Origin: Gemmatimonadota bacterium
GTDB lineage: Bacteria; Gemmatimonadota; Gemmatimonadetes; Gemmatimonadales; GWC2-71-9
Length of the DNA: 64,000 nucleotides
Assembly (NCBI GenBank): GCA_040388535.1
Contig: JAZKBR010000007.1
Location: forward strand, 68,862-132,861
Reading direction: 5' to 3'
Part shown: positions 16,274-25,281 of the stretch, one piece after another
Layout: the number at the start of each line of letters is the position of its first letter
Position numbering within the stretch: the first letter of the stretch is position 1
Program-made: the position numbers and the translations under genes
Notes under the pieces: model-generated
What the model saw: only the letters and a program-made list of their open reading frames with translations
Database searches by the model: none
What the model was told of the DNA's origin: nothing

Positions 16274-16687
16274 CTAGTCTTCAATTATTGGAGCGCCGTT
16301 CCTCAAGGCCAAGTCGACTTTTTCTCGAGCCACTTTGATCTCATCGGGAGAATGTCCCTGCCAATGCGTGACTTCAGCCACCACCTTGAAGCCATTCTGT
16401 GCCCGAAATGAGTTCGTGGGATTTCCGGGAAACTTCTTGTCGGTGAGATTTGGATCGTTCTCAATGTCACCCACCGGCTCAACGACATAGATCCTGCCGG
16501 GACCGTCGCCAACCGCCAGCTCCGCTCCCCAGATCGCCACATTCAAATTTGACGACGCGTAGACGAATTTCGCCCGCCGCTCCCCGTAATTGGCACGATT
16601 TCCGGGGACGATCAGATCTCCGATGCTCAGATGGGATTTGGTGCCGTGGAAATAGCTTTGAATGAAATTGGGGTGTTGGTCTGTCAT
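16274..16687 (-). CDS. arr: NAD+-rifampin ADP-ribosyltransferase (Arr)
   Basis: A protein of 137 residues, the length of known Arr enzymes. It matches the family closely by eye: SYFHGTKSHLSIGDLIVPG, the Tyr-rich VYASSNLNVAIWGAELA, GRIYVVEPVGDIENDPNLTDK and KFPGNPTNSFRAQNGFKVVAE. Arr transfers ADP-ribose from NAD+ to the C23 hydroxyl of rifampin and inactivates the drug. It sits in a run of small co-directional genes and has no transposase or integrase near it. The name is confident; drug resistance in the host is inferred. Confidence 0.93.
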   Translation of the reverse strand: MTDQHPNFIQSYFHGTKSHLSIGDLIVPGNRANYGERRAKFVYASSNLNVAIWGAELAVGDGPGRIYVVEPVGDIENDPNLTDKKFPGNPTNSFRAQNGFKVVAEVTHWQGHSPDEIKVAREKVDLALRNGAPIIED

Positions 16688-17610: not shown

Positions 17611-18171
17611 TCAGCTCATTAATCCTTCCAGTATCCCGTTCGGCGTGACCTTGAGAAGCAGCACCTTGGGCTCCGACGGCGGAGCGCTCATGGGCTCACC
17701 GGGCTTTCGCCCAATGAAATTAACGTGGAGCTCCCGAGCGTCAGCGCGGATCTGCATGGACTCCGGGGCGATTCGGTCGCCAACAAGGAACGCATTGGTC
17801 GTAGTGTATTCCGAGGGCTTCTGCAACGCGACCACCACGTAGTAGAACGTGCCGCTTCCGCCGGCATCCTGCGTAACCCAAAATGCGATGTCCTCCAGTC
17901 CGTCGCCATTCAGATCTCCCACTGCCTCCCGACCCAGGTAGCGGGTCGTGGTCCTGGCGGAGGAGTTCTCTATTGGCGCGCTCGAAACGCCGTTGACGAG
18001 GGTGATCAACGCCCCGTTGATGGTAAAGGAGGCGTTCTGGCCGAACATCGCAGGCGCCACAGGGCGTTGGGCGGAGCTTTCGCTTTCCTTCGGGCTTTGC
18101 CCCGGTGAGCTACAGCCCCCGAACCCCAAAGCCCCGAGAATGACTAGACCAACGGCCGTCGCTCGTGTCAT
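17611..18171 (-). CDS. Lipoprotein with an FG-GAP/VCBS-like calcium motif
   Basis: A protein of 186 residues with a lipoprotein signal and lipobox ending in Cys20 (ALGFGGC). The mature part contains one DLNGDGLEDIAFW motif, an EF-like calcium loop found in FG-GAP repeats, followed by beta-strand-rich sequence. The full domain family is not one I can name. It starts 15 bp after the preceding gene on the same strand. Confidence 0.8.
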   Translation of the reverse strand: MTRATAVGLVILGALGFGGCSSPGQSPKESESSAQRPVAPAMFGQNASFTINGALITLVNGVSSAPIENSSARTTTRYLGREAVGDLNGDGLEDIAFWVTQDAGGSGTFYYVVVALQKPSEYTTTNAFLVGDRIAPESMQIRADARELHVNFIGRKPGEPMSAPPSEPKVLLLKVTPNGILEGLMS

Positions 18172-18186
18172 GACAGCAAACCCTTG

Positions 18187-18696
18187 CTAGGCTGCCGCTT
18201 TCGACGGACGCGGCATGTGTATCAAATGCTTTCGGAAATTGAGGACCGTTCCCGCGAACACGTTCGACACGACGAACGCAATGGGCAGTCCCGGCTCCAC
18301 GTCGAGCACGACTTCAGCGCTGAATCCGCGGGCCGTGAGGAAGGCGGCAGCGGCGTGCGCCGCCGCGGCGGGGTCGTCCGCGACCAGCCCGATGCTCGCG
18401 GAGGCCGAGCCGAGTCGCTGTACGACAGCGGGGTCCGGGTAATTGATAATTGTCCCGTCCCACATGATGGAGCGCAGTACACCGCCCGAATCGGCCTGGA
18501 ACCGCTCACGCACGCCATGCTGTGCGAGCAGTTCGATGATTGTGGCCTTGGCCGCCGGAGACGCCGCGGAGAAAATGCGAGAACCGACGTCCGGAAACGG
18601 TAGTGGATTGCGGCCCGCCAGGATCAGCGCGCACCACGCGACCAGGAGGAGCACAAGGACAAGTGCGGGAACACCGAGCCAAAGCGGAACGAACAT
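18187..18696 (-). CDS. Single-pass membrane protein of unknown function
   Basis: A protein of 169 residues. One N-terminal membrane helix (LWLGVPALVLVLLLVAWCALI) is followed by an alpha/beta soluble domain with ALA-rich helices (DDPAAAAHAAAAFLTARGF). Not recognised. A clear Shine-Dalgarno (GGAGGAG) precedes the ATG, which lies 17 bases after the conserved end (GTTAGGC) of a large attC-like palindrome. That spacing is what a cassette gene would show. Confidence 0.75.
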   Translation of the reverse strand: MFVPLWLGVPALVLVLLLVAWCALILAGRNPLPFPDVGSRIFSAASPAAKATIIELLAQHGVRERFQADSGGVLRSIMWDGTIINYPDPAVVQRLGSASASIGLVADDPAAAAHAAAAFLTARGFSAEVVLDVEPGLPIAFVVSNVFAGTVLNFRKHLIHMPRPSKAAA

Positions 18697-18713
18697 CTAC
18701 TCCTCCGGGGTCG

Positions 18714-18830
18714 GCCTAACGACTCTGCGCTTCTGCGGCGAGGCCAGCCGAGGCCGCCGCCCTCCCCAAACCTATCTAACGCGGCGGCCTCGGGGCTTCT
18801 GGCCTCGCCCGCAGCAAGCGCGGGTCAGGT
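18714..18830 (-). repeat. Large bulged palindrome resembling an integron attC site
   Basis: The left arm 18727-18760 and right arm 18781-18821 pair over 34 bp without mismatch except for three bulges (1, 1 and 5 bases), all on the right arm, around a 20-base loop. Outside the stem lie GCCTAAC at 18714-18720 and GTCAGGT at 18824-18830, which read on the minus strand as an attC R' core GTTAGGC and an R'' core ACCTGAC with one departure from RYYYAAC. Length (117 bp), one-sided bulges and core boxes fit attC. No integrase gene is present, so a structured terminator or REP element remains possible. Confidence 0.55.
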
Positions 18831-18841
18831 AGCGCAGTCAT

Positions 18842-19276
18842 CTATCGCACTGTGATGACTCGGATCATGCCAAGTTCACTATGTAACCGCGAAGTGTCTG
18901 ACTGTGCGAACCCACACACCAGGAGGTAGGTACGACCCTTATGAAAGTCGACCAAGAGGCGTCCCGGTGTCTGCATTCCCGGTCGGGCGGTGAGAATGCC
19001 ACTCGTTGGTTCGCGATACTCGTCCCATGCCGAGTCCGCCATTGCCAAAGGCAGTACGCGAGATAAGTCGACTCCGGCTCGCAGCTCGATAACCTTCACT
19101 TCGTGCAGGACGGTACCACTATTCTGGAAGGAAACCGCGGTCTCACCGAAAGGCACGGTGTCAGGGGCTGCAAAGGCGTAGTCAGTAGCTCCCACGTCAA
19201 GCTCAGCGTATTTCGGAGCCTGCTGGCAACTGACGAGGAAGCAGCACGCGAATAGTGCTCGCACCGGAAAACACAT
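18842..19276 (-). CDS. Cupredoxin-like lipoprotein
   Basis: A protein of about 144 residues with an N-terminal lipoprotein-type signal (ALFACCFLVSC). The mature part resembles a cupredoxin: an early FQNSGTVLHEVKVIEL strand with a His ligand and the closing loop YLLVCGFAQSDTSRLHSELGM, giving Cys, His and Met in the order of a type-1 copper site. I prefer the ATG at 19276 (TGGAG upstream) over 19300. Copper binding and electron transfer are inferred; the Cys-to-His spacing is longer than in plastocyanin. Confidence 0.75.
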   Translation of the reverse strand: MCFPVRALFACCFLVSCQQAPKYAELDVGATDYAFAAPDTVPFGETAVSFQNSGTVLHEVKVIELRAGVDLSRVLPLAMADSAWDEYREPTSGILTARPGMQTPGRLLVDFHKGRTYLLVCGFAQSDTSRLHSELGMIRVITVR

Positions 19277-19406
19277 CAGCGCTCCATTGATGGGGTACAT
19301 GGCGCTACCTAAGCCGTATTGGGCCGCCTCCCTCCACAGCCCAAATCACACTCAGGGTACCGCCTCGCCGTCCGATCTGCCAATCCTGCACGATCCAGCC
19401 ACGCCC

Positions 19407-20648
19407 CTACGGCTTCCCCTGCCCCGCATCATTCCGCACCACCACCCCATTCTTCATCACGAACGACACCGCCTTCAGCGTCTTGATATCCTCGAGCGGA
19501 TTGGCCGGCGTCGCGATCAGGTCGGCGGCCATTCCGACTTTGAGGAAGCCGCGTTGGCCGTCGAGGCCGAGGAGACGGTGGGCCTCGGTGGTAATCGCCT
19601 TGAGGATCGCCTTCGCAGGGAGCCCAGCCTCGACCCACATATCGACCCCCGAGATCGCGTCCTGGCCGCGGGTGACGCCCTGCTTGCGGGTCGTGGCATC
19701 GGTGCCGTAGACCAGGGTCACGCCGATCTTGTAGGCGCGTGCGAGCTTGTCGACCCACTGCTTGTGCTCGGCGTCGGAGGTGCCGATCGCGAGATACTCG
19801 GTGCCAACGAGAACGACATTGTTCTTCTTGGCGAGCTCGAGGTCGGCATCGCTGATGGCGTAGCCGTGTTCGATCGAGTTCACCCCCGCCTCGGCCGCGT
19901 TATGCGCCCCGGGGCCGGTCCAGGCGTGGGCCGCGAGCTTGAGCCCCGCGCGCGCCGCCTCGTCCTTGATGAAGCGGATATCGTCGGCGCTATAGATGTA
20001 GCGCTGGTCGTCGACGACGATCTTGATCACGGTGGCGCCGAAGTGGATGTTCTGACGGACGGCCTTGACCATCTCGTCGCGGGTGTCGGCGAAGAAGTAT
20101 TCCGGTTCTGCAAGGCCCTGCTTGTCAGGCTGCAGATGGAATTGCCCGCCATACGGCGCGATGATCCGCCCGGCGGTGAGCAGCGTGGGGCCGGGGATCA
20201 TCCCCTGCAGGATCGCGCGGCGCACCTGCACGCAATCGAAGTTCCCCTCGTTGCCGATGTCACGCACCGAGGTGAAGCCGGCCTCGAGCATCGTGCGGGC
20301 GTTAACGACCCCTTCAATGGCGCGGAAGGCCTCCGGGTCCTGCAGGGTGGTGAGGTAGTAGTTGTCGGCATCGCGCCGCGGCTGCACCTCCATACAGAGG
20401 TGGGCGTGGGCATCGACCAGCCCGGGAGAGATCGTCGAGGTCGAGAGGTCGATGACCTTGGCGCCCGCCGGGATGGTGACGTTGCTGCCGATCGCCGTGA
20501 TGCGGCCCCGGTCGACCAGGATCACCTGGTTACGGGCAGTGCTGCCGGCATCGGGATCGACGATGGCGCCGGCGCGGATGGCGGTGATTTGTGCGCTAGC
20601 GAGGGCAGGCACGAACGCGGCGAAGATGACCGTGAGGAGCAGGCGCAT
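19407..20648 (-). CDS. Secreted imidazolonepropionase-like amidohydrolase
   Basis: A protein of 413 residues with a signal peptide ending at ALASAQ. It shows the amidohydrolase TIM-barrel set: VDAHAHL with metal-binding His81 and His83, ATVIKIVVDD with the bridging Lys, KLAAHAW, the conserved IEHGYAIS, GTDAT near the catalytic Asp and a C-terminal ADLIATPANPLEDI beta-sandwich. Secreted members of this group often hydrolyse dipeptides (Xaa-Pro type) or cyclic amides. It is monocistronic in appearance. A frameshifted relative of its C-terminus lies 3 kb away at 22595-22840. Confidence 0.93.
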   Translation of the reverse strand: MRLLLTVIFAAFVPALASAQITAIRAGAIVDPDAGSTARNQVILVDRGRITAIGSNVTIPAGAKVIDLSTSTISPGLVDAHAHLCMEVQPRRDADNYYLTTLQDPEAFRAIEGVVNARTMLEAGFTSVRDIGNEGNFDCVQVRRAILQGMIPGPTLLTAGRIIAPYGGQFHLQPDKQGLAEPEYFFADTRDEMVKAVRQNIHFGATVIKIVVDDQRYIYSADDIRFIKDEAARAGLKLAAHAWTGPGAHNAAEAGVNSIEHGYAISDADLELAKKNNVVLVGTEYLAIGTSDAEHKQWVDKLARAYKIGVTLVYGTDATTRKQGVTRGQDAISGVDMWVEAGLPAKAILKAITTEAHRLLGLDGQRGFLKVGMAADLIATPANPLEDIKTLKAVSFVMKNGVVVRNDAGQGKP

Positions 20649-21526: not shown

Positions 21527-21658
21527 AGGTACATCCTTTGGCCGCCAATGCGCCAGATAGGAGCAGCGGGCGGCGCCGTCCGCTCAAGTCGCTGGCACTC
21601 CCAGCTCACCGTGTCCCAGGCGATCACGTAGTGCGCCGTAGTCAACAGCCGGCGCATG

Positions 21659-22435
21659 TTAGACCGCGGTCAAGTTCAGACCATAAGAATTCTCGCGGAT
21701 GCAGGCATTGAGAATTTGTACATGCGGGTAGTGCTTCTCCGTCAGGCGAATGACCTTCGTAGCCACCTCAGGAGCTATCCTCGCACCCAGGATGACCTGA
21801 CGAAGAAAGCGGGGTTCGAATCTCTTGGTGCAAGCGCCATCTCGAAAATTGATCAAGCGCCATTCTTCTTCGTACGCCCATGCGTCGGCCTTCGTAAACA
21901 TTGCCTTCTCTTCGACCACGTTGCGATCCTCAGCAAAGACTCGACAGACTGGCAAGTCTCGGCTGTATCTCACAGGCCTGGCGTTCCGGAATGGGGAATC
22001 GCATTCCTCGGTGCTGAAGCCCATGCAAATGCCGGCATGCGCGTCGGCATAGTGCGACCACATCAGAATATCGTCGCCCTTGGCGGTGAGGCAAAAAAGC
22101 CCAACTTGCCGATCCATCGCCTCATTCAGTTGCTTAACGGCGCGCGCAAAGTCCTGGGGCCACTGGTCTTTGTGTCCCCGCGCGATCTCGCGAACGCGGG
22201 CGCGTCGTTGTTGTCCGTTTAGCGGAGTTTTTTTCAAAATGCGATCTGCGGCGGCTCTGAGCTCCTCTTTGGTACATTCGTGCGAGAAGACTGGCCGGCA
22301 CTCGAACGGGTCGTTGAACATTGCCCTGGTCGCCATGAACAGCTCCTGCTTTTCTAGTGCAGCTTCGGTGTACAACCAACTCGCAGGCGCCACGCTCCGA
22401 TACTTGTAAAGGATGGCTGGCATTTGTGGACTCAT
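21659..22435 (-). CDS. DUF2971 domain protein
   Basis: A protein of 258 residues with the DUF2971 pattern: LYKYRSV at the start, the FNDPFECRPVF motif, a central VGLFCLTAKGDDILMWSHYADAHAGICMGF block and the C-terminal LRQVILGARI. The function of the family is unknown; members occur often in accessory islands and near phage-defence genes. The stop codon TAA lies in a GTCTAAC. Base composition here is lower in GC than in flanking housekeeping genes. Starts at 22435 or 22423 are both possible. Confidence 0.85.
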   Translation of the reverse strand: MSPQMPAILYKYRSVAPASWLYTEAALEKQELFMATRAMFNDPFECRPVFSHECTKEELRAAADRILKKTPLNGQQRRARVREIARGHKDQWPQDFARAVKQLNEAMDRQVGLFCLTAKGDDILMWSHYADAHAGICMGFSTEECDSPFRNARPVRYSRDLPVCRVFAEDRNVVEEKAMFTKADAWAYEEEWRLINFRDGACTKRFEPRFLRQVILGARIAPEVATKVIRLTEKHYPHVQILNACIRENSYGLNLTAV

Positions 22436-24588: not shown

Positions 24589-25281
24589 ATGCACTCCGGA
24601 TCCCCCAAGGCCGTCGTCCTCCTCTCCGGGGGAATGGACTCCGCCACCTGCCTCGCCATCGCCCGGGCGCAGGGCTTCGCCTGCTATGCCCTCTCCTTCC
24701 GCTATGGCCAGCGGCACGCCATCGAGCTCGAAGCGGCAACCCGCGTGGCCCAGGCCCAGGGCGTCACCGAGCACAAGATTGTCGATATCGACCTCCGCGC
24801 CTTCGGCGGCTCGGCCCTCACCGCCGACATCTCCGTCCCGAAGGACCGCCCCGAGCAGACCATGGGCGACGATATCCCGGTGACCTACGTCCCGGCCCGG
24901 AATACCATCTTCCTCTCGTATGCGCTCGCCTGGGCCGAAGTCCTCGACGCCCACGACATCTTCATCGGCGTCAATGCCCTCGACTACTCTGGCTACCCCG
25001 ACTGCCGACCCGAGTTCATCGCCGCCTACCAGGCCACCGCCCGACTGGGCACCCGGCTGACCGACCTGACAGTACGCGCCCCGCTGGTCCGCTACTCCAA
25101 GAGTGAGATCATCGCCAAGGGCAACACGCTCGGCGTGGATTACTCGATCACCCGGACCTGCTACGACCCGCTCGCCGATGGCACCTCCTGCGGCCACTGC
25201 GACGCCTGCCTCCTCCGCCTCCGCGGCTTCGCCCAGCTCGGCCTCGCCGACCCGGCCCCATACGTCGCAGGCGTCCAGTGA
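24589..25281 (+). CDS. queC: 7-cyano-7-deazaguanine synthase QueC
   Basis: A protein of 230 residues with the PP-loop motif SGGMDS at residues 13-18 and the usual QueC blocks [43 protein letters not shown] and a C-terminal zinc site ([17 protein letters not shown]). It converts 7-carboxy-7-deazaguanine to preQ0 using ATP and ammonia in queuosine synthesis. It starts a coupled queC-queE-HD gene unit; queE overlaps by four bases (GTGA). queD and queF are not in the window. Size and motifs are those of the housekeeping enzyme rather than the shortened QueC-like proteins of defence systems. Confidence 0.96.

Follow-up and report, generated by a model that had tools for sequence, protein, structure and literature searches.

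An attC site without an integron integrase in a Gemmatimonadota bacterium, probably left from a decayed cassette array

The analysis of a 64,000-nucleotide stretch of a Gemmatimonadota contig (the window, to whose numbering all positions refer unless another locus is named) revealed at 18714-18830 a 117-nt imperfect palindrome, read on the minus strand, which we consider, with little room for doubt, to be a genuine attC. It would close a cassette of about 593 bp (19312-18720), belong to the attC family of its genus and represent an integrase-less relic, that is, a SALIN or a decayed CALIN. The former term denotes a single attC without an integron integrase (PMC12690207) and the latter a cluster of attCs in the same condition (PMC9024848, PMC8618304). 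The sequence, the structure, the family relationship and the cassette ends were all seen in this analysis, as was the fact that no integrase was found. As a relic, the attC is an ordinary one; the gene-capture system from which it derives is well known, and integrons are common in the clade to which it belongs.

On the minus strand, the site runs from the R'' box ACCTGAC (18824-18830) through two bases to L'' (GCGCTTGCTGCGG, 18809-18821), a long inner stem and its loop, L' (CCGCAGAAGCGC, 18727-18738), six bases and the R' box GTTAGGC (18714-18720). The original prediction had named both flanking boxes, and both are indeed read at the minus-strand ends: GTTAGGC fits the R' consensus GTTRRRY perfectly, and ACCTGAC differs at one position from RYYYAAC, the consensus of R'' boxes, with similar deviations (e.g., GCCTGAC and GTCTAGC) occurring in array attCs of the genus. 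The crossover (G^TT) would fall within R' at 18720/18719, a position that we presume from established integron biology. The L'' stretch carries one extra G (18815) in respect to L', and this base is also present in the attCs of the genus. Folded as single-stranded DNA, the sequence reaches -47.9 kcal/mol on the plus strand (z -7.55) and -46.7 kcal/mol on the minus strand (z -6.53), and none of 200 shuffles folded as well on either strand. The predicted palindrome of 117 bp is therefore borne out by the folds and their z-scores, but the 34 paired bases then attributed to it are 42 in the plus-strand structure. The three bulges proposed for a single arm were recovered too, since the fold has bulges of 5, 1, and 1 nt within the stem, all of them on the L'' arm, the other arm showing a few unpaired bases near its base. 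With a hairpin loop of about 20 nt, the fold has both the unpaired centre and the extra L''-arm base(s) expected of an attC, and the bottom (recombining) strand would be the plus strand of the window.

The covariance-model search of the contig and of the whole genome that had been suggested as a check was performed with a model of our own, comprising the R and L stems and built on 20 attCs from related genomes of the phylum, the window site being left out. The training attCs were picked by hand, from the output of a pattern finder, in regions no longer than 20 kb surrounding intI genes and then aligned; four plasmid attC candidates were left out. In the resulting alignment, 12 of the 14 stem pairs proposed by RNAalifold exhibit compensatory changes. 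The model matched 18714-18830 with 56.5 bits (E 4e-12 in 224 kb and 6.6e-11 genome-wide), and a single further match was obtained elsewhere in the genome (C2:485946-486064, 51.6 bits), 150 of 4439 first-look candidates having been scored, so that weak sites could be missed. In an unfiltered search of 13 kb of the window, the runner-up scored 10 bits, and the attC itself, read on its opposite strand, 7.1 bits; compared with 56.5 bits, the latter value fixes the orientation of the attC. In a control, the model recognised two attCs carried by resistance plasmids, scoring 24 and 34 bits, and missed other cassettes there, which indicates that it is lineage-biased. The search of the window against Rfam gave no match; Rfam is not known to have an attC family.

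The comparison with the integrons of the genus and of the phylum points in the same direction. Matches to the attC model at E <=0.01 were found in eight of the ten genomes of the genus, including that of the window, and an intI above the cut-off in 138 of the 395 genomes of the phylum, two of which are among these ten. In one of these two congeners (G163), two attCs (L055 12772-12873 and 13682-13795) share with the window attC the same boxes and the same extra G, and the second of them is identical to it at 21 of the first 22 bases; unlike the window attC, however, they come directly after an intact intI. The attC of a second congener (G012), which is 87% identical to that of the window over 119 bp, lies about 0.5 kb after a broken intI, split into two pieces in different frames (L130 10939-12146, on G012:C8), the second of which continues into an NTF2-like (SgcJ/EcaC) domain. 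The genes flanking the G012 attC showed no similarity at the protein level to those flanking the window attC. In a third congener (G030), 16 model matches fall within about 16 kb after an intI fragment that covers model positions 221-313 only; this stretch (L134 3554-19364, corresponding to about 144.5-160.4 kb of G030:C7) represents a larger integrase-less array in the genus. The window locus shows no synteny with the intI loci of its congeners, and in the three closest amidohydrolase orthologues (G408, G284, and G369), where an empty site was sought, the flanks are unrelated.

The lack of an integrase, claimed at the outset, was also found at the scale of the genome (98% complete, 11 contigs), where no integron integrase exceeded the TIGR02249 cut-off of 265. 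Indeed, the best of the five TIGR02249 matches, an XerC/D-like ORF, reached 89.3 bits, and the matches fall in XerC/D-like and phage-type recombinases. According to this search, there is no intI beside the cassettes, as there would be in a complete integron, and neither an integron integrase, whose lack defines both SALINs and CALINs, nor a remnant of intI was found in the genome searched.

The ends of the cassettes represent a further and distinct line of evidence. The first bases of an inserted cassette (TTRRRY) derive from its own attC and should therefore pair with its own R''. In 26 consecutive pairs of array sites of the genus lying less than 2.5 kb apart (badly framed pairs, including two at 0/4, were kept), a mean of 3.08 of the four variable positions matched, vs. 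2.43 after shuffling, and none of 20000 shuffles reached 3.08; in many of these 26 cassettes the pairing extends 2-6 bases further out. Both cassettes of the window satisfy this rule. The R'' ACCTGAC predicts the start TTAGGT, which is present on the minus strand at 19312-19307, where the presumed start of cassette 1 fits at all four variable positions, shows five further paired bases and is separated by six bases (AGCGCC) from the ATG of ORF 18842-19300; the preceding base is a C where a G is expected. The attC thus follows a cassette gene of the same orientation whose start matches its R'', the stop of the ORF lying 11 nt before this box. In the second cassette, the start TTAGGC predicts the R'' GCCTAAC, and GCCTAGC is found at 18192-18186. 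The R' box had also been reported to lie 17 bases ahead of an ORF start, and this is exactly the distance (18713-18697) that separates it from the ATG of ORF 18187-18696. Taken together, the model score, the similarity to intI-linked attCs of the genus and the end-matching rule uphold the interpretation of the palindrome as an attC.

The two genes that this attC separates had been described as small orphan genes, a definition that suits only one of them. The cassette 2 ORF (18187-18696, minus strand, 169 aa) could not be assigned to a family by our search and, apart from itself, gave just two weak partial matches in 102 genomes of the taxonomic family. The cassette 1 ORF (18842-19300, minus strand, 152 aa), a probable lipoprotein without any Pfam family at E <=1, has instead matches in 48 of these 102 genomes, its own counted.

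The traces left at neighbouring gene ends concern the question of whether the attC stands alone. A left-arm matrix was derived from the 29 attCs of the genus scoring at least 43 bits, leaving out the window site and a badly aligned divergent one (L139), and both strands of 160 kb of the contig were scanned with it; an earlier matrix derived from sites of the phylum separated signal from noise poorly, ranking the intact window site eighth, and the genus matrix was used in its place. The window attC ranked first (26.8), followed by 18192-18171 (18.0) and 21664-21643 (17.1), the fourth score being 11.2, and the random expectation at or above 18.0 in the 160 kb is 0.08. The former of the two (18171-18192, minus strand) is a presumed truncated attC made up of the R'' GCCTAGC, which fits the start TTAGGC at all four variable positions, and an L''-like stretch, with no L'-R' half; the stop codon that ends ORF 18187-18696 falls within its R'' (18192-18186), and the ORF that follows begins at 18171. 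The latter (21643-21664, minus strand), with the R'' GTCTAAC, contains the stop codon of the DUF2971 gene at 21659-22435. Neither half site has a hairpin, a covariance-model match or a right-arm match, and for this reason both are best read as presumed attCs devoid of the L'-R' half, an assignment less certain than that of the intact site. Since these R''-L'' halves contain the stop codons of the neighbouring genes, we are probably dealing with a decayed cassette array rather than with a lone site. Therefore, of the lone, CALIN-like attC initially put forward, the absence of an integrase is retained, whereas its solitude probably is not, in view of the two truncated halves at adjacent gene ends.

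The second model match of the genome belongs to another attC locus (G000:C2; L110 1501-1619, about 925-967, and L111 9393-10064), in which the intact attC of 51.6 bits is followed by a gene and then by a truncated attC consisting of the left arm only. Two genes seem to be present in the cassette ahead of the intact attC, one of them coding for a RiboL-PSP-HEPN domain; at about L111 11847-11876, there may also be a right-half site, with GTTAGGT.

This distribution of sites may be compared with the categories described in the literature. The window resembles a SALIN in having one intact attC and a cassette gene with no integrase found in the genome, and differs from it in the two presumed half attCs nearby and in the second attC locus on another contig. 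Similarly, it shares with CALINs several codirectional cassettes and the absence of the integrase; however, with one intact attC (detected by the model) and two presumed halves (detected by the left-arm matrix), the window alone falls short of the two-attC rule. In this respect, IntegronFinder 2 is described as reporting clusters of at least two attCs and as omitting single ones by default to reduce false positives, even though single attCs can be real (PMC9024848). The arrangement at 18192-18171, where a cassette gene and part of an attC are directly followed by the next gene, recalls the fused cassettes that result when an attC is lost in part or in whole, as described in PMC4670013 for a class 1 integron array of Pseudomonas aeruginosa, a setting unlike that of the window. 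Loss of the integrase with retention of the cassettes is also described in Xanthomonas (PMC12444791).

Different explanations might account for a palindrome of this kind. The one to which we assign a real, if less than even, chance accepts the attC as genuine and supposes that it never belonged to a resident integron, an integrase acting in trans having placed either one cassette or two at a secondary site of the chromosome (attG-type). This idea would agree with the finding of no intI at the locus, with the lack of synteny with the intI loci of the congeners, with the location of the second attC locus far off on C2 and with the base ahead of the cassette start not being a G; moreover, off-target insertion figures, together with loss of intI and rearrangement, among the three routes proposed for integrase-less clusters (PMC8618304). 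Nevertheless, no fewer than two and perhaps three cassette ends share an orientation within 3.5 kb, and the congeners have broken intI genes beside their attCs; an array deprived of its integrase would account for both equally well or better, and it is on these grounds that the decayed array is favoured over an off-target insertion.

The other two explanations would deny that the palindrome is an attC at all, and each of them appears highly improbable. A strong GC-rich hairpin in an intergenic region is what one would also expect of a look-alike palindrome or of a member of a REP-like repeat family, and the original prediction was to be abandoned if no attC match was obtained and the same hairpin recurred as such a family at unrelated intergenic sites; no recurrence of this type was observed in the genome, where no other full-length copy of 18714-18830 was found. 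Indeed, the genome has three mismatch-free copies of the left-arm pattern YYTRACNCGCGCTTGCNGC, in the window attC, in the intact C2 attC and in the truncated attC adjacent to the latter, and the confinement of this pattern to these attC traces speaks against a repeat family, which was therefore rejected; the score of 56.5 bits and the agreement of boxes, extra base and cassette ends with those of intI-linked arrays also argue against a look-alike. An intrinsic transcription terminator, or another hairpin acting only at the RNA level, might be invoked for a stable hairpin lying between two codirectional genes, and attC hairpins can affect expression. However, the scan of 18000-19500 revealed no terminator, and this reading was discarded on that account; in addition, no T run follows the hairpin, the loop is about 20 nt long, and the boxes and the intI-linked relatives would be left unexplained.

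If the decayed array is the correct explanation, its history might be outlined as follows. Recombination by IntI is known to involve the folded bottom strand of the attC (PMC11023631). In the window, the integron integrase would have folded this strand (the plus one) into the hairpin, joining it at G^TT to an attI or to another attC; the cassette so inserted would be that carrying ORF 18842-19300 and closed by the attC. Once the integrase was lost, the cassettes would have been frozen in place, and one or two neighbouring attCs might have lost their L'-R' half by deletion, leaving one intact attC (a SALIN) or, if the broken halves are included, a decayed CALIN. On a more speculative level, we tentatively suggest, while considering it rather unlikely, that the genus loses the integron platform repeatedly, the cassette genes being kept and fixed by deletion of L'-R' and the stop codons embedded in R'' outliving the site. 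If so, a series would be visible from intact intI (G163 and G273) through broken intI with attCs (G012 and G030) to the frozen, half-erased attCs described here. The genus offers a natural series of integron decay, even though nothing changes in what is known of integrons. The locus is a clear further case of an attC without integrase, from a lineage that has been little studied, and shows that single attCs can be validated by combining lineage-specific models, matched cassette ends and a search for half sites.

Some observations on single genes complete this scenario. The cassette 1 protein resembles a small lipoprotein and has an H followed by C-H-M near the end, a pattern that may be of the blue-copper type; the search of solved structures returned a designed protein as the sole match (E 0.0045 over 30 residues), which was regarded as due to chance. 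Among 11 loci of cassette 1 homologues searched with the attC model, one gave a weak match (L076, 17.1 bits). This locus is from another genus; at L076 103-127 (G120:C77) it has the left half of an attC whose outer bases (GCGCTACCTAACCCGC) are the same, upstream of a homologue 46% identical to the cassette 1 protein.

The ORF at 16274-16687 codes for a rifampin ADP-ribosyltransferase (arr; NCBIfam NF033144, 175.7 bits vs. a cut-off of 130), whose presence had been adduced in favour of an integron cassette. Neither the left-arm matrix nor the covariance model detected an attC or a half site beside it; hence, arr lends no support to the attC reading and was dismissed as a cassette gene. Lastly, the best matches of the QueC-like gene at 24589-25281 (60-65% identity) are scattered over many phyla, which suggests horizontal transfer of this gene.
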